A stretch of 64,000 nt of DNA from Adhaeribacter radiodurans (GTDB lineage: Bacteria > Bacteroidota > Bacteroidia > Cytophagales > Hymenobacteraceae): the NCBI RefSeq assembly GCF_014075995.1, contig NZ_CP055153.1, forward strand, positions 4,464,001-4,528,000, written 5' to 3'. Every line of letters begins with the position of its first letter. The stretch's first letter is position 1. The translations under genes and the position numbers were made by a program. The notes under the pieces were generated by a model that ran no database searches, was not told where the DNA came from, and saw only the letters and a program-made list of their open reading frames with translations. This document shows, in pieces, positions 34,515 through 38,806 of this stretch.

Positions 34515-34546
34515 TTTGCTTCTTAAAAATTCGTTCTTTAATATTG
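34515..34546 (+). promoter_or_regulatory. Promoter of the aromatic amino-acid operon
   Basis: TTTG (34515-34518), 20-bp spacer, TAATATTG (34539-34546; one mismatch to TAnnTTTG). This predicts a transcript start ~7 bases before the leader-peptide ATG. Confidence 0.6.
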
Positions 34547-34559
34547 AGCCATCAAATAA

Positions 34560-34631
34560 ATGAAAATGAAGCGAATAACTAACGCATACTTTTTTTACTA
34601 TTACTTTTTTAGTACCTCTCAGGGGTCTTAA
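34560..34631 (+). CDS. Phe/Tyr leader peptide of the aromatic operon
   Basis: 23 codons plus TAA: MKMKRITNAYFFYYYFFSTS, then QGS. Codons 10-17 are eight consecutive Tyr/Phe codons (Tyr Phe Phe Tyr Tyr Tyr Phe Phe, 34587-34610). It lies between a promoter and an intrinsic terminator, upstream of three genes for Phe/Tyr synthesis, exactly where an attenuation leader (compare enterobacterial pheL) would be. Ribosome stalling on these codons when charged tRNA-Phe or tRNA-Tyr is short would leave the GGGG at 34622-34625 free for antitermination pairing. The role is inferred, but the codon run, position and structures agree. Confidence 0.85.
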   Translation: MKMKRITNAYFFYYYFFSTSQGS

Positions 34632-34672
34632 GAGAATAGTATTGCGTTTAGATTAACAAAATATAAAACTCC

Positions 34673-34702
34673 AAAGCCCCGAAAATTCGGGGCTTTTTTT
34701 TT
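34673..34702 (+). terminator. Attenuator terminator of the aromatic operon
   Basis: AAAGCCCCGAA (34673-34683) pairs with TTCGGGGCTTT, followed by nine T in total. It ends five bases before the prephenate dehydratase ATG, so it can only be an attenuator. CCCC at 34677-34680 can instead pair with GGGG at 34622-34625 in the leader frame (GGGGTCTT with AAAGCCCC, one mismatch and one G-U), a plausible antiterminator. Confidence 0.88.
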
Positions 34703-34707
34703 AACTT

Positions 34708-35538
34708 ATGAGTACTTTAAAAATAGCGATTCAAGGTGGTCCGGCTTCTTTCCACGATGTAGTAGCCCAGCAATATTTTGTTGGTAAAACTACCGAGATT
34801 GTTCCGTGTATGACTTTTCAACGGGTTTGTGCCGCCGTAAAAAATCGTGATGCAGATTTCGGCGTGATGGCCATTGAAAATGCGCTGGCTGGCAGCATTC
34901 TGGGAAACTATTCGTTGCTGCAAGATTACCCAGTTTCTATTATCGGCGAAGCGTATTTACCCATTGAGCAAAATCTTCTGGCCTTACCGGGTCAGTCATT
35001 GTCGGATATAAAATTAGTACGTTCGCACCCAATGGCCTTATTGCAATGCACTAACTTCCTGGAAGAAAATCCGCATATTCAGGCATTAGAATCGGCAGAT
35101 ACGGCCGAAAGTGCCCGGGAAATCCGGGAAAATAACTTGGTGGGTGTAGGCGCTATTGCCAGCAAATTAGCCGCCGAACGCTATCAACTGGAAATTGTAG
35201 AAGAACGCGTAGAGAATTACAAAGAGAACTATACCCGTTTCATGATTATTTCGCGGAAGCCGCTCGCCGACAAAAGCCAGGCTAACAAGGCATCCGTTAT
35301 TTTCACTTTGCATCACCGCGCTGGCGAGTTAGCTAAAATATTAGATGTTTTCCGGGATTTGAATATTAATCTTTCGCTCATTCAATCCATTCCGATTCTA
35401 AGTCAACCAACCGAATTTGCCATTTTATTGGATCTGGAATGGGAGGATTACTCTACTTTTGAAGAATCCATAAGCTTAGTTACGCCGCTTATCGTGGAAA
35501 TGAAAATTTTGGGTATTTACCAAAGAGGAAAAAGATAA
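34708..35538 (+). CDS. pheA: Prephenate dehydratase
   Basis: 276 residues. The catalytic domain (1-185) has IAIQGGPASFHD, AIENALAGSILGNY and the active-site Thr176 in NYTRFMII. A C-terminal ACT domain (~196-270) has LHHRAGELAKILDVFRDLNINLSLIQS. It turns prephenate into phenylpyruvate. The usual ACT Phe-binding word ESRP reads QSIP here, so feedback control may differ. First gene of a three-gene operon behind the attenuator; its stop abuts the next ATG. There is no chorismate-mutase domain; that activity is fused to the third gene. Confidence 0.95.
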   Translation: MSTLKIAIQGGPASFHDVVAQQYFVGKTTEIVPCMTFQRVCAAVKNRDADFGVMAIENALAGSILGNYSLLQDYPVSIIGEAYLPIEQNLLALPGQSLSDIKLVRSHPMALLQCTNFLEENPHIQALESADTAESAREIRENNLVGVGAIASKLAAERYQLEIVEERVENYKENYTRFMIISRKPLADKSQANKASVIFTLHHRAGELAKILDVFRDLNINLSLIQSIPILSQPTEFAILLDLEWEDYSTFEESISLVTPLIVEMKILGIYQRGKR

Positions 35539-36714
35539 ATGATTATTGCCAAAGCAAACCGGCTGAACGAAGTACAGGAATATTATTTCGCCCGTAAACT
35601 GGCGGAAGTACGTGCTTTAATGGCCCAAAGCAAAAAAATAATTAACCTGGGCATTGGTGATCCGGATTTACCAGCTTCGGAAAACACCGTGCAGGCGCTT
35701 ACGGCATCGGCCCAACTGCCTAATAGCCACGGTTACCAACCATATCGTTCCATTCCGGCGCTTCGTACCGCCATGGCCGATTGGTATGCTCAAACCTACG
35801 ACGTAAAGCTAAATCCGGAAACTGAAGTTTTGCCTTTGTTGGGTTCTAAAGAAGGCGTATTTCATACATCACTGGCGTTTTTAAATTCGGGCGATAAAGT
35901 GTTAGTACCCAACCCAGGCTATCCGGCCTACGCCGCGGTTACTAAATTGGTAGGTGCCGAACCGGTTTATTTTGATTTAACTGCCGAAAACAACTGGCTG
36001 CCTGATTTAGAAAAATTGAGCCGGCAAGATTTAAGCAATGTGAAATTAATGTGGTTAAATTACCCGAATATGCCTACCGGGGCTTTAGCTACTGAAGCTG
36101 ACTTCGCAAAAATCATTGATTTTGCCTGTCAGCATCAAATATTAATCGTTCACGACAATCCGTATAGTTTGGTACTTAACACCAAACCACCAGTAAGTAT
36201 TTTACACGTATCCGGTGCAATGGATTGTTGTCTGGAACTTAACTCGTTAAGCAAATCGTTTAATATGGCCGGTTGGCGGGTAGGTATGGTTCTAGGTCAG
36301 AAAGATTACATAGATGCAATAATTGCGGTAAAAAGCAATCTGGATTCCGGTATGTTTTTACCGGTGCAGCAAGCCGCCATTGAAGCTTTACAAAACCCGG
36401 ATTCGTGGCACGTCGAACGCAATGCAGTGTATGCGCGCCGGCGGGAATTAATTTACCAGTTATTAGATTTATTAGGCTGCCAATATTCTACCGAAGCTAC
36501 CGGTATGTTTGTCTGGGCGCGGGTGCCCGACGACATCAGCGATGTAGAAGCCTTTTTAGATACAATACTCTACGAAGCCCACGTGTTTTTAACACCAGGC
36601 AAAATATTTGGGTCAAACGGTGAGCGTTACGTGCGTGTATCGGTTTGTGCCCCCGAAGAAAGTATAACCCAAGCAATTCAAAATATTCACCACTTTTTAA
36701 CTATTACAAAATGA
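35539..36714 (+). CDS. Class I/II aminotransferase of the aromatic operon
   Basis: 391 residues, fold-type I PLP enzyme: NLGIGDPDLPASENT, HGYQPYRSIPALR, NYPNMPTGALAT, HDNPYSLV and the PLP Lys239 in LNSLSKSFNMAGWRVGMV; a C-terminal Arg (ERYVRVSVC) binds the carboxylate. The closest class appears to be the LL-DAP/aspartate-type aminotransferases. Position between prephenate dehydratase and DAHP synthase argues that it makes phenylalanine and tyrosine from their keto acids (or arogenate from prephenate). It starts on the base after the previous stop and overlaps the next gene by four bases (ATGA), so translation is coupled. Confidence 0.92.
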   Translation: MIIAKANRLNEVQEYYFARKLAEVRALMAQSKKIINLGIGDPDLPASENTVQALTASAQLPNSHGYQPYRSIPALRTAMADWYAQTYDVKLNPETEVLPLLGSKEGVFHTSLAFLNSGDKVLVPNPGYPAYAAVTKLVGAEPVYFDLTAENNWLPDLEKLSRQDLSNVKLMWLNYPNMPTGALATEADFAKIIDFACQHQILIVHDNPYSLVLNTKPPVSILHVSGAMDCCLELNSLSKSFNMAGWRVGMVLGQKDYIDAIIAVKSNLDSGMFLPVQQAAIEALQNPDSWHVERNAVYARRRELIYQLLDLLGCQYSTEATGMFVWARVPDDISDVEAFLDTILYEAHVFLTPGKIFGSNGERYVRVSVCAPEESITQAIQNIHHFLTITK

Positions 36715-37832
36715 GCCCAAAACCTCAAATCGATGTCCTAACCGAATCTGCTTTGATCAATGCAGACGGCTCTCCGCTTATTATTGCTGGCCCTTGCAGC
36801 GCTGAGTCGGAGGAACAAGTAATGGCTACTGCCCACGGTATTAAACAAATTCCGGGAGTAAATATTTACCGGGCCGGTATCTGGAAACCCCGTACTCGTC
36901 CTAATTCTTTTGAAGGTGTGGGTGTACCCGGCTTAAAATGGTTAAAAAGAGTAAAAGCCGAAACCGGCCTGCGGGTTGCTACCGAAGTAGCCAATGCCAT
37001 GCACGTATACGAATCGTTAAAAGCGGGTATTGATGTTATGTGGATAGGTGCCCGTACTACGGTTAACCCTTTTACAGTACAAGAAATTGCCGATGCTTTG
37101 CGCGGAACCGATATTCCGGTATTAGTTAAAAACCCGGTTAACCCTGATTTACAATTATGGATTGGTGCCATTGAGCGTTTAAACCAGGCTGGTTTGCGTC
37201 AGATTGGAGCCATTCACCGCGGTTTTTCTACTTTTGATAATGCGCCTTACCGCAACTTACCAAAATGGAACAGCGCCATTGAGTTCAAGCGTTTATTACC
37301 CGAAATTCCATTAATCTGCGACCCGAGCCACATTGCCGGTAACCGCGAATTATTATTGCCAGTTGCCCAAAAAGCAATGGACTTAGCTATGGATGGTTTA
37401 ATGATTGAAACCCACATTGATCCATCCGTAGCGTTGAGCGATGCCGCCCAGCAGGTAACTCCGGAAAACTTAGGTAAAATGCTAGCCAGCATCCGTTTCC
37501 GGAAACCAGAAGGCGAAGAACTAGCCGAAGACGATCACCACTTACTCGAAGAAATGCGGAAGCAAATTGATGAGTTAGACGACGAAATGGTAGAAGTGTT
37601 TGCCCGTCGTGCCCGTTTATCGCGTAAAATTGGCGAGTACAAAAAAGCGCATAACATGACTATTTACCAGGTTAAACGTTGGGATCAAATTATTGCTGAT
37701 CGCCTGGAGCATGCGCGTAAAAATGGATTAGACGAGCAGTTTATGAAATCTGTTCTGCAAAGCATTCACCAGTATTCTATTAACATCCAAAACGATGTTT
37801 TAAATAAAAAAGAGCACGAAGCAAAAGCTTAA
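36711..37832 (+). CDS. Bifunctional 3-deoxy-7-phosphoheptulonate synthase/chorismate mutase
   Basis: 373 residues from the ATG inside the ATGA overlap with the aminotransferase. The N-terminal class I-beta DAHP synthase (residues ~1-265) has IIAGPCSAESEEQV, IYRAGIWKPRTRPNSFEGVG, LVKNPVNPDLQLWIGAIERL, ICDPSHIAGNRE and MIETHIDPS. The C-terminal AroQ-type chorismate mutase (~283-365) has MRKQIDELDDEMVEVFARRARLSRKIGEYKK. The fusion catalyses the first shikimate step and the branch toward prephenate. This domain order is usual in Bacteroidota, where the mutase domain allows prephenate/Phe/Tyr control. Last gene of the operon, followed by a strong terminator. Confidence 0.95.
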   Translation: MSPKPQIDVLTESALINADGSPLIIAGPCSAESEEQVMATAHGIKQIPGVNIYRAGIWKPRTRPNSFEGVGVPGLKWLKRVKAETGLRVATEVANAMHVYESLKAGIDVMWIGARTTVNPFTVQEIADALRGTDIPVLVKNPVNPDLQLWIGAIERLNQAGLRQIGAIHRGFSTFDNAPYRNLPKWNSAIEFKRLLPEIPLICDPSHIAGNRELLLPVAQKAMDLAMDGLMIETHIDPSVALSDAAQQVTPENLGKMLASIRFRKPEGEELAEDDHHLLEEMRKQIDELDDEMVEVFARRARLSRKIGEYKKAHNMTIYQVKRWDQIIADRLEHARKNGLDEQFMKSVLQSIHQYSINIQNDVLNKKEHEAKA

Positions 37833-37851
37833 GCTATTTAATTCTCATAAA

Positions 37852-37890
37852 AACAAAAACGGCCGCTTAGTAAAAGTGGCCGTTTTTGTT
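37852..37890 (+). terminator. Operon terminator
   Basis: AACAAAAACGGCCGCTT pairs with AAGTGGCCGTTTTTGTT (one G-U) around a short loop; T-rich after it. Confidence 0.9.
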
Positions 37891-38011
37891 TTTAGCGTTC
37901 TTTCTAAATTTTGATAAACAAGTGCTTTTCAGCTTTTTTGATTAAAGTAATATTCCGGCTCCCCTCTTAAGATTAGGAGGGGCAGGGGTGGTTGACTGCA
38001 TCTCCTTGTCT

Positions 38012-38806
38012 TTTCTTTGGAGGCTTTTCAAGCCTCTAGGCTTAGGTGCTAACTTGTTTGACAAGCCTAAGATTGCCTCGTGGCTGGCGGGTCTCGTTTG
38101 GCTGTTGAGGGCCATTTAGCGAACCTTGGCTCACTGCGTGGCGCCATGCTGCTTTGCAGCACCGGAACGCTAAATGGCCCTCAACAGCCAAACTGGTATC
38201 AGTTGCTAGTAGCTACTGTTTTTCTTACTTCAGCCGAGAATGAAGATGGTTGATTAACTTGTCTTCATTTATTGTCTTGGTTAACCTTACTAGCGCAAGT
38301 CTTAGCGGAGCGGGACTAGTGACGTACAGACATACTTACTAAGGCGCGGAAGTTACTTCCGTGCCTTTCTCTGCTAACTACTTTCTGTTATCTTTTTCTA
38401 GCACGTTTTGCTAGCGCAAGTCTTAGTGAGGCGGGACTTGTGCCTTACGGACAAAAGTCAGTCTCCCGACTGACGGAAACTCAGCCATTTTACGTCAGTC
38501 GGGAGACTAACCTAGGTTCTTACGCTCAAGTGACGCTTCGCTTAACACTTGCGCGAGGAGGCGTATTTACTAAATCCTTTATCCCTACCACCTGAAGTAA
38601 GGTAGCTACAGGCAACTGACTCCAGTTTGGCTGTTGAGGGCCATTTAGCGTTCCGGTGCTGCAAAGCAGCATGGCGCCACGCAGTGAGCCAAGGTTCGCT
38701 AAATGGCCCTCAACAGCCAAACGAGACCCGCCGGCCACGAGGCAATCTTAGGCTTGTCAAACAAGTTAGCACCTAAGCCTAGAGGCTTGAAAAGCCTCCA
38801 AAGAAA
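38012..38806. repeat. 795-bp non-coding element with 185-bp near-perfect inverted arms
   Basis: Arm 38012-38196 is the reverse complement of 38622-38806 with one visible mismatch and no gaps. The pairing continues imperfectly ~40 bp inward. Each arm contains its own 25-bp inverted repeat (TTTGGCTGTTGAGGGCCATT...). The 425-bp centre holds two direct 43-bp repeats (38290-38332 and 38411-38453, starting CTAGCGCAAGTCTTAG), a third inverted relative (38526-38559), a 16-bp perfect hairpin (38460-38475 with 38493-38508) and another at 38341-38367. No gene is credible inside. A degenerate relative is at 27595-27897. Confidence 0.92.

Follow-up and report, generated by a model that had tools for sequence, protein, structure and literature searches.

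Predicted attenuation of the pheA operon through a mixed Phe/Tyr leader peptide in Adhaeribacter radiodurans and its relatives in the Bacteroidia

The locus

The stretch of DNA considered here (the window) comprises 64,000 nucleotides of the Adhaeribacter radiodurans genome; coordinates are those of the window, and all of the features described lie on its forward strand. The operon under study begins with pheA, which encodes prephenate dehydratase (34708–35538; PF00800, with an ACT match under its cut-off), and continues with a class I/II aminotransferase gene (35539–36714; PF00155) and a DAHP synthase/chorismate mutase gene (36711–37832; PF00793 and PF01817), the start of which overlaps the stop of the aminotransferase gene. 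A terminator-like hairpin lies 3′ of the operon at 37848–37894. Further on, one finds a 205-nt inverted repeat (38012–38216 and 38602–38806, 98% complementary), of which there are at least 40 copies in the genome at 80–100% identity (40 of 169 candidates were scored); it is a dispersed palindromic element.

The region ahead of pheA can be sub-divided into a promoter, a short open reading frame (ORF), and a terminator. The original prediction had proposed a leader frame of 23 codons, and direct reading bears this out: the ORF at 34560–34631 consists of 23 codons and a TAA stop codon. Its codons 10–17 (34587–34610) are TAC TTT TTT TAC TAT TAC TTT TTT, that is, Tyr Phe Phe Tyr Tyr Tyr Phe Phe, again as proposed, and they make up the regulatory run. 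An in-frame ATG at 34566 (codon 3) is conserved among near relatives and may be the true start of the leader. The intrinsic terminator was also correctly located at 34673–34702, with a 10-bp stem, a 4-nt loop, and a U tract, and the ATG of pheA follows five bases on, at 34708. The folding z score of the window's leader is −2.89, and the window carries a single copy of the attenuator.

A promoter-like pair had likewise been noted. It is present, and fits best a promoter for the primary sigma factor of Bacteroidota, TTTG + 20 nt + TAATATTG, with a −33 element at 34515–34518 and a −7 element at 34539–34546. The latter matches five of the six defined letters of TAnnTTTG, which is included in the Bacteroidota promoter consensus quoted in a passage of PMC7366714. 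A scan for sigma-70 promoters is ill-suited to Bacteroidota; a search for (T)TTG-N18–22-TAnnTTTG, with one mismatch tolerated in the second box, found this motif upstream of 77 of 143 leaders (those with a terminator in range, see below) versus 8.2 expected after shuffling. From these elements, transcription of the leader RNA would be expected to start near 34550.

Conservation of the leader

We counted a leader as present when an ORF contained at least seven Phe or Tyr residues in 10. The pheA gene was found in 118 of 150 genomes of the window's own family, Hymenobacteraceae (32 were without a match), and in 35/129, 59/78, and 102/118 genomes of the class, order, and phylum sets, respectively. 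Within the family, 90 of 119 pheA places were sampled (30 + 60), and part of the places in the other three sets. In all there were 268 loci, of which 267 could be located (L242 had no pheA match); after six repeats were merged, 261 distinct upstream regions were available for comparison.

A leader precedes pheA in 149 of these 261 regions. Among controls, 4 of 2610 dinucleotide-shuffled sequences and 1 of the 261 reverse complements passed the same cut, and the distribution of leader scores is bimodal. By origin, leaders occur at 88/89 loci of the window's own family (the exception, L072, scores 6), 31/53 loci of the named GTDB set, 25/39 from other orders of the class, 4/42 from other families of the order, and 1/38 from other classes of the phylum. 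This last case, L266, is a lone Phe/Tyr leader with a terminator outside the Bacteroidia, and it was possibly acquired by transfer.

By the cut of seven in 10, no leader was found at 112 of the 261 loci, including the pheA operons of Blattabacterium endosymbionts (L037 and L046). Split by locus group and frame length, these are 48 loci from Bacteroidia, 27 with longer N-terminal frames (among which L006 is wrongly placed), and 37 from other classes. Other families of the order contribute 38 leaderless loci, and in 20 of these at least 60 further codons are open ahead of the assigned pheA start; pheA may therefore be a longer form there. The leader also goes with pheA being the first gene, since an ORF of 70 or more codons ending within 80 nt of pheA was seen at 2/149 loci with a leader versus 30/48 leaderless Bacteroidia loci. 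In leaderless Algoriphagus, for example, a 410-residue ORF (aroA-like by eye) runs up to pheA.

Aligning the leaders of relatives had been suggested as a check on the original prediction. The outcome is a conserved leader, Phe/Tyr run, and terminator, together with an antiterminator whose two arms change in step with each other across the class. A terminator lies behind the run in 144 of the 149 leaders, the search requiring a U-rich tract, and within 115 nt of it in 143; the search was set to this distance, some distal leaders having matched proximal terminators, and the 6/149 leaders without a terminator at this distance were dropped.

Composition of the run

In each of the 143 leaders for which a terminator lies in range, the run has at least two Phe and at least two Tyr codons, with medians of 4 and 3, respectively. 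Among 40 divergent representatives (<70% identity), 35 have both amino acids within the first four residues of the run. It had been supposed that mixed control by Tyr and Phe is unusual in Bacteroidota. The comparison does not support that view: every one of these leaders is mixed, and tyrA is found behind pheA at 45 of the 53 named loci (23 with a leader, of 31, and 22 without). With tyrA so placed, the mix of Phe and Tyr codons fits the content of the operons. Eight leader loci are without tyrA in the stretch examined, at least two of them (L010 and L054) because that stretch is short. The tyrA gene of the window's own genome is unlinked, with no such leader in the 350 nt before it, and Tyr codons are retained in the window's leader although tyrA lies elsewhere.

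One should also ask how often such a run occurs. The 6.9-Mb genome has seven separate sites with eight consecutive Phe/Tyr codons (10 matches when overlapping ones are counted), and the same pattern read backwards has four matches. The other six sites were rejected as leaders: three lie opposite a longer ORF on the other strand, two share bases with a longer ORF read in a different frame, and the last is in a short frame that lacks a start codon. The best argument against a chance occurrence is the conservation of the leader upstream of pheA.

Antiterminator and terminator

The original prediction had a GGGG in a leader codon pairing with a CCCC in the terminator, the helix being extended by UCUU with AAAG. 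The GGGG (34622–34625), AAAG (34673–34676), and CCCC (34677–34680) are positioned as claimed; the extension fails, as a C·A mismatch prevents ungapped pairing. The best antiterminator duplex in the window instead has nine pairs, with U34626 and A34621 bulged. Its 5′ arm (UCAGGGGUCUU, 34619–34629) overlaps the end of the leader ORF as far as the first base of TAA, and its 3′ arm (34674–34682) lies inside the 5′ arm of the terminator, so that the two structures are mutually exclusive.

Across the 143 leaders, the best pairing between the segment that follows the run and the 5′ arm of its own terminator has a mean of −13.89 kcal/mol, versus −9.71 with the arms of others. In the 40 representatives, pairing with the own arm averages −13.56 kcal/mol versus −8.60 (sd 0.40) for permuted partners, with none of 20,000 permutations as low, and the own arm beats all 39 others in 15/40. 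Dinucleotide-shuffled segments reach −7.65, with 0/500 sets as low; taken singly, 32/40 representatives have p < 0.05 against shuffles and 8/40 do not. Because shuffles keep the base composition, the excess is not an effect of G+C content. In different lineages, the arms have unrelated sequences and yet stay complementary to one another, as in GGGG/CCCC, GGACCGGA/UCCGGUCC, GAUGGGA/UCCCAUC, and GAGGCGGGA/UCCCGCCUC.

The position of the arm is also informative. It begins 3–17 nt past the run in 40/40 representatives (median 9). If the A-site of a ribosome is on the last codon of the run, its footprint would extend about 11 nt beyond the run. The end of the run therefore coincides approximately with the point from which a stalled ribosome would start to cover the arm, and each codon in the run can serve in regulation. 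In some relatives, up to 23 nt separate the end of the arm from the stop codon, and a ribosome at the stop codon would thus cover the arm partly only.

An antiterminator that excludes the terminator and has its 5′ arm downstream of the run is evident for the set and marginal in the window, whose duplex is among the weaker ones, with two bulges, no more than four pairs in a row, and p = 0.042 against shuffles; in pairing with the window's segment, its own arm is outdone by 30% of the other terminator arms. In a close alignment of 31 sequences, the antiterminator covariation was reached by 44/500 shuffles; this comparison is uninformative since the helix hardly varies there.

Folding with the ribosome at different positions

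When the ribosome is placed at codon 10 and the RNA is free up to the shared arm, folding gives the antiterminator (−16.4), and the same holds at codon 13. A ribosome at the stop codon leaves the terminator only. Once the full terminator is present it wins in every state folded, including the stalled one, and switching would therefore have to be kinetic.

A further helix of the 1:2 type, which wraps round the run, could act as a protector. It joins AACGCA (34581–34586), directly ahead of the run, to UGCGUU (34643–34648). Across 31 relatives, the helix is formed in 85.5% of cells. At one of its pairs, G-C is changed to A-U in six sequences and the pair is broken in seven; the last pair is broken in 14. 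As a set, the helix has a permutation z score of −5.3 and 0/500 shuffles do as well; singly, the signal is weak (mean z −0.87). These folding and comparative results lend modest support, and it is possible that the helix is a real element. In ribosome-free RNA up to the shared arm, the predicted fold is the antiterminator, not this helix.

Interpretation and alternatives

The locus thus presents a leader ORF rich in codons for the end products of the operon, and a terminator between that leader and the first gene. In all likelihood, a ribosome-mediated transcription attenuator controls the pheA, aminotransferase, and DAHP synthase/chorismate mutase genes. This reading, which was that of the original prediction, is strengthened by the conservation of leader, run, and terminator among relatives, by the compensating antiterminator, and by a geometry that fits stalling. 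From the arrangement of these elements, we infer that the leader RNA responds to the supply of Phe and Tyr as follows. When charged tRNA-Phe or tRNA-Tyr is scarce, a ribosome would stall in the run with its leading edge short of 34619–34629; this arm could then pair with 34674–34682, the terminator could not form, and the operon would be transcribed. When both amino acids are plentiful, the ribosome would proceed to the stop codon and cover the arm, and transcription would end before pheA. A shortage of either amino acid should suffice (OR logic). Without translation, the wrap-round helix could hold the arm and favor termination, an outcome that folding does not clearly predict.

The same sensing might have a translational output, with the hairpin near the pheA start gating access of ribosomes. 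In its favor, the U tract in the window ends five bases ahead of the ATG; among representatives, however, the distance from stem to ATG ranges from 5 to 196 nt (the largest values being those of distal copies at tandem loci), which is too loose for occlusion of a start site, and the U-rich tract at 144 of 149 hairpins, though required by the search, also points to termination. We regard this alternative as very unlikely. Alternatively, the leader could encode a small functional protein rich in aromatic residues, with the terminator as a constitutive brake that never switches. The ORF is indeed conserved and the terminator strong. Against this, only the Phe/Tyr content is common to the leaders of different families, whose length, start, C-terminus, and stop position vary, and covariation links the terminator arm to the arm that follows the run, for which a protein would have no need; Trp- and His-rich leaders also precede trpE and hisG in the same genome. 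We hold this reading to be most improbable.

A structured leader with a terminator could also be a riboswitch that binds a metabolite or a tRNA (e.g., a T-box-like element), the ORF being incidental. No Rfam family matched at its gathering score, there was no T-box among the 25 matches with E ≤ 5, and the most conserved property of the region is its coding for Phe and Tyr; we give this alternative virtually no weight.

The compensatory changes indicate that, in much of a bacterial class, the making of aromatic amino acids is under ribosome-mediated attenuation of the textbook form, the sensor responding to two amino acids together.

Tandem attenuators

By our first criterion, two separate Phe/Tyr leaders precede pheA at 43 of the 261 loci, of which L103, L246, and perhaps L226 are doubtful. 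By a second criterion, two runs at least 80 nt apart were found at 46 loci; at 36 of these, neither terminator is missing and the second leader has an ATG. At these 36 loci, the second leader follows the first stem by a median of 24 nt (a gap of 222 nt at L221 is a wrong pick). A second promoter could hardly fit into such a gap, except by overlapping the first terminator, and the paired attenuators, judged by their spacing, probably act in series on one transcript.

Within the window's own family, tandem loci belong to genus groups g5 and g4 and to a sub-group of g3 (L217–L222), while L040 and L250 come from elsewhere; the scatter suggests more than one origin. Many of those in the family fall between L073 and L228. 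With one copy scored per locus, complementary arms were seen in the distal copy at some loci (e.g., L172 and L174) and in the proximal copy at others (e.g., L073 and L176).

On balance, we favor the view that many Bacteroidia use a dual-specificity Phe/Tyr leader, and that several lineages have doubled the attenuator in series, each copy having its own leader and terminator. If so, the two probabilities of read-through would multiply, for a steeper response with a lower leak, and nature would offer in the double versions a test of the idea that attenuators in series make a response sharper. A passage of PMC4974804 mentions tandem attenuators at Mg transporters.

Comparison with known systems

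The top match of the leader region in Rfam is Phe_leader (RF01859), a full-length covariance match of 42.6 bits (E = 4.3e-6, 281 bases searched) that is below the gathering score of 55 bits. Part of this score is generic, since there are weak matches to the models of rimP (31.2 bits) and Leu_leader (27.2 bits) as well.

Related observations exist in the phylum. For Flavobacteriaceae, PMC9723704 (2021) reports strong signs that amino-acid operons are under leader-peptide attenuation, and conserved structured 5′ elements, without an Rfam match, at pheA and hisG. The pheA element shares its gene and phylum with ours; Phe/Tyr codons, an antiterminator, and a tandem arrangement are not named in the portions of that article consulted here. 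Leader-like small ORFs in B. thetaiotaomicron appear in parts of PMC7366714. Our literature search, which drew mainly on open-access papers, found no description of a Phe + Tyr leader mix, of its covariation, or of serial double leader-peptide attenuators. Candidate attenuators in Bacteroidetes/Chlorobi were reportedly described by Vitreschak in 2004, and that study and Lopatovskaya 2010 may already list this leader.

The window's genome also has leaders before trpE and hisG. Upstream of trpE (L277) lies MKMKQLYTAGWWHLLES, with two adjacent Trp codons and then a strong terminator, the 5′ arm of which can pair, by eye, with bases just past the leader stop; its layout makes a Trp attenuator likely. 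Upstream of hisG (L278), an ORF ending in VHFHHYHHSSRGE forms a His-rich leader, behind which no clear U-tract terminator was seen by eye.

The closest known counterpart is the enterobacterial pheL-pheA system, which likewise has a Phe-rich leader before pheA, a terminator, and an antiterminator. The leader of E. coli pheL is known for Phe codons only, whereas that of the window mixes in Tyr codons, and the operon behind it adds the DAHP synthase/chorismate mutase and aminotransferase genes (in most relatives, also tyrA). Sensing of several end products by one leader is familiar from the ilvGMEDA (Ile, Val, and Leu) and thrABC (Thr and Ile) operons, which are alike in this respect and differ in the amino acids concerned. 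Judged by its sequence and that of its relatives, the element in the window is classical ribosome-mediated attenuation that would sense Phe and Tyr together.
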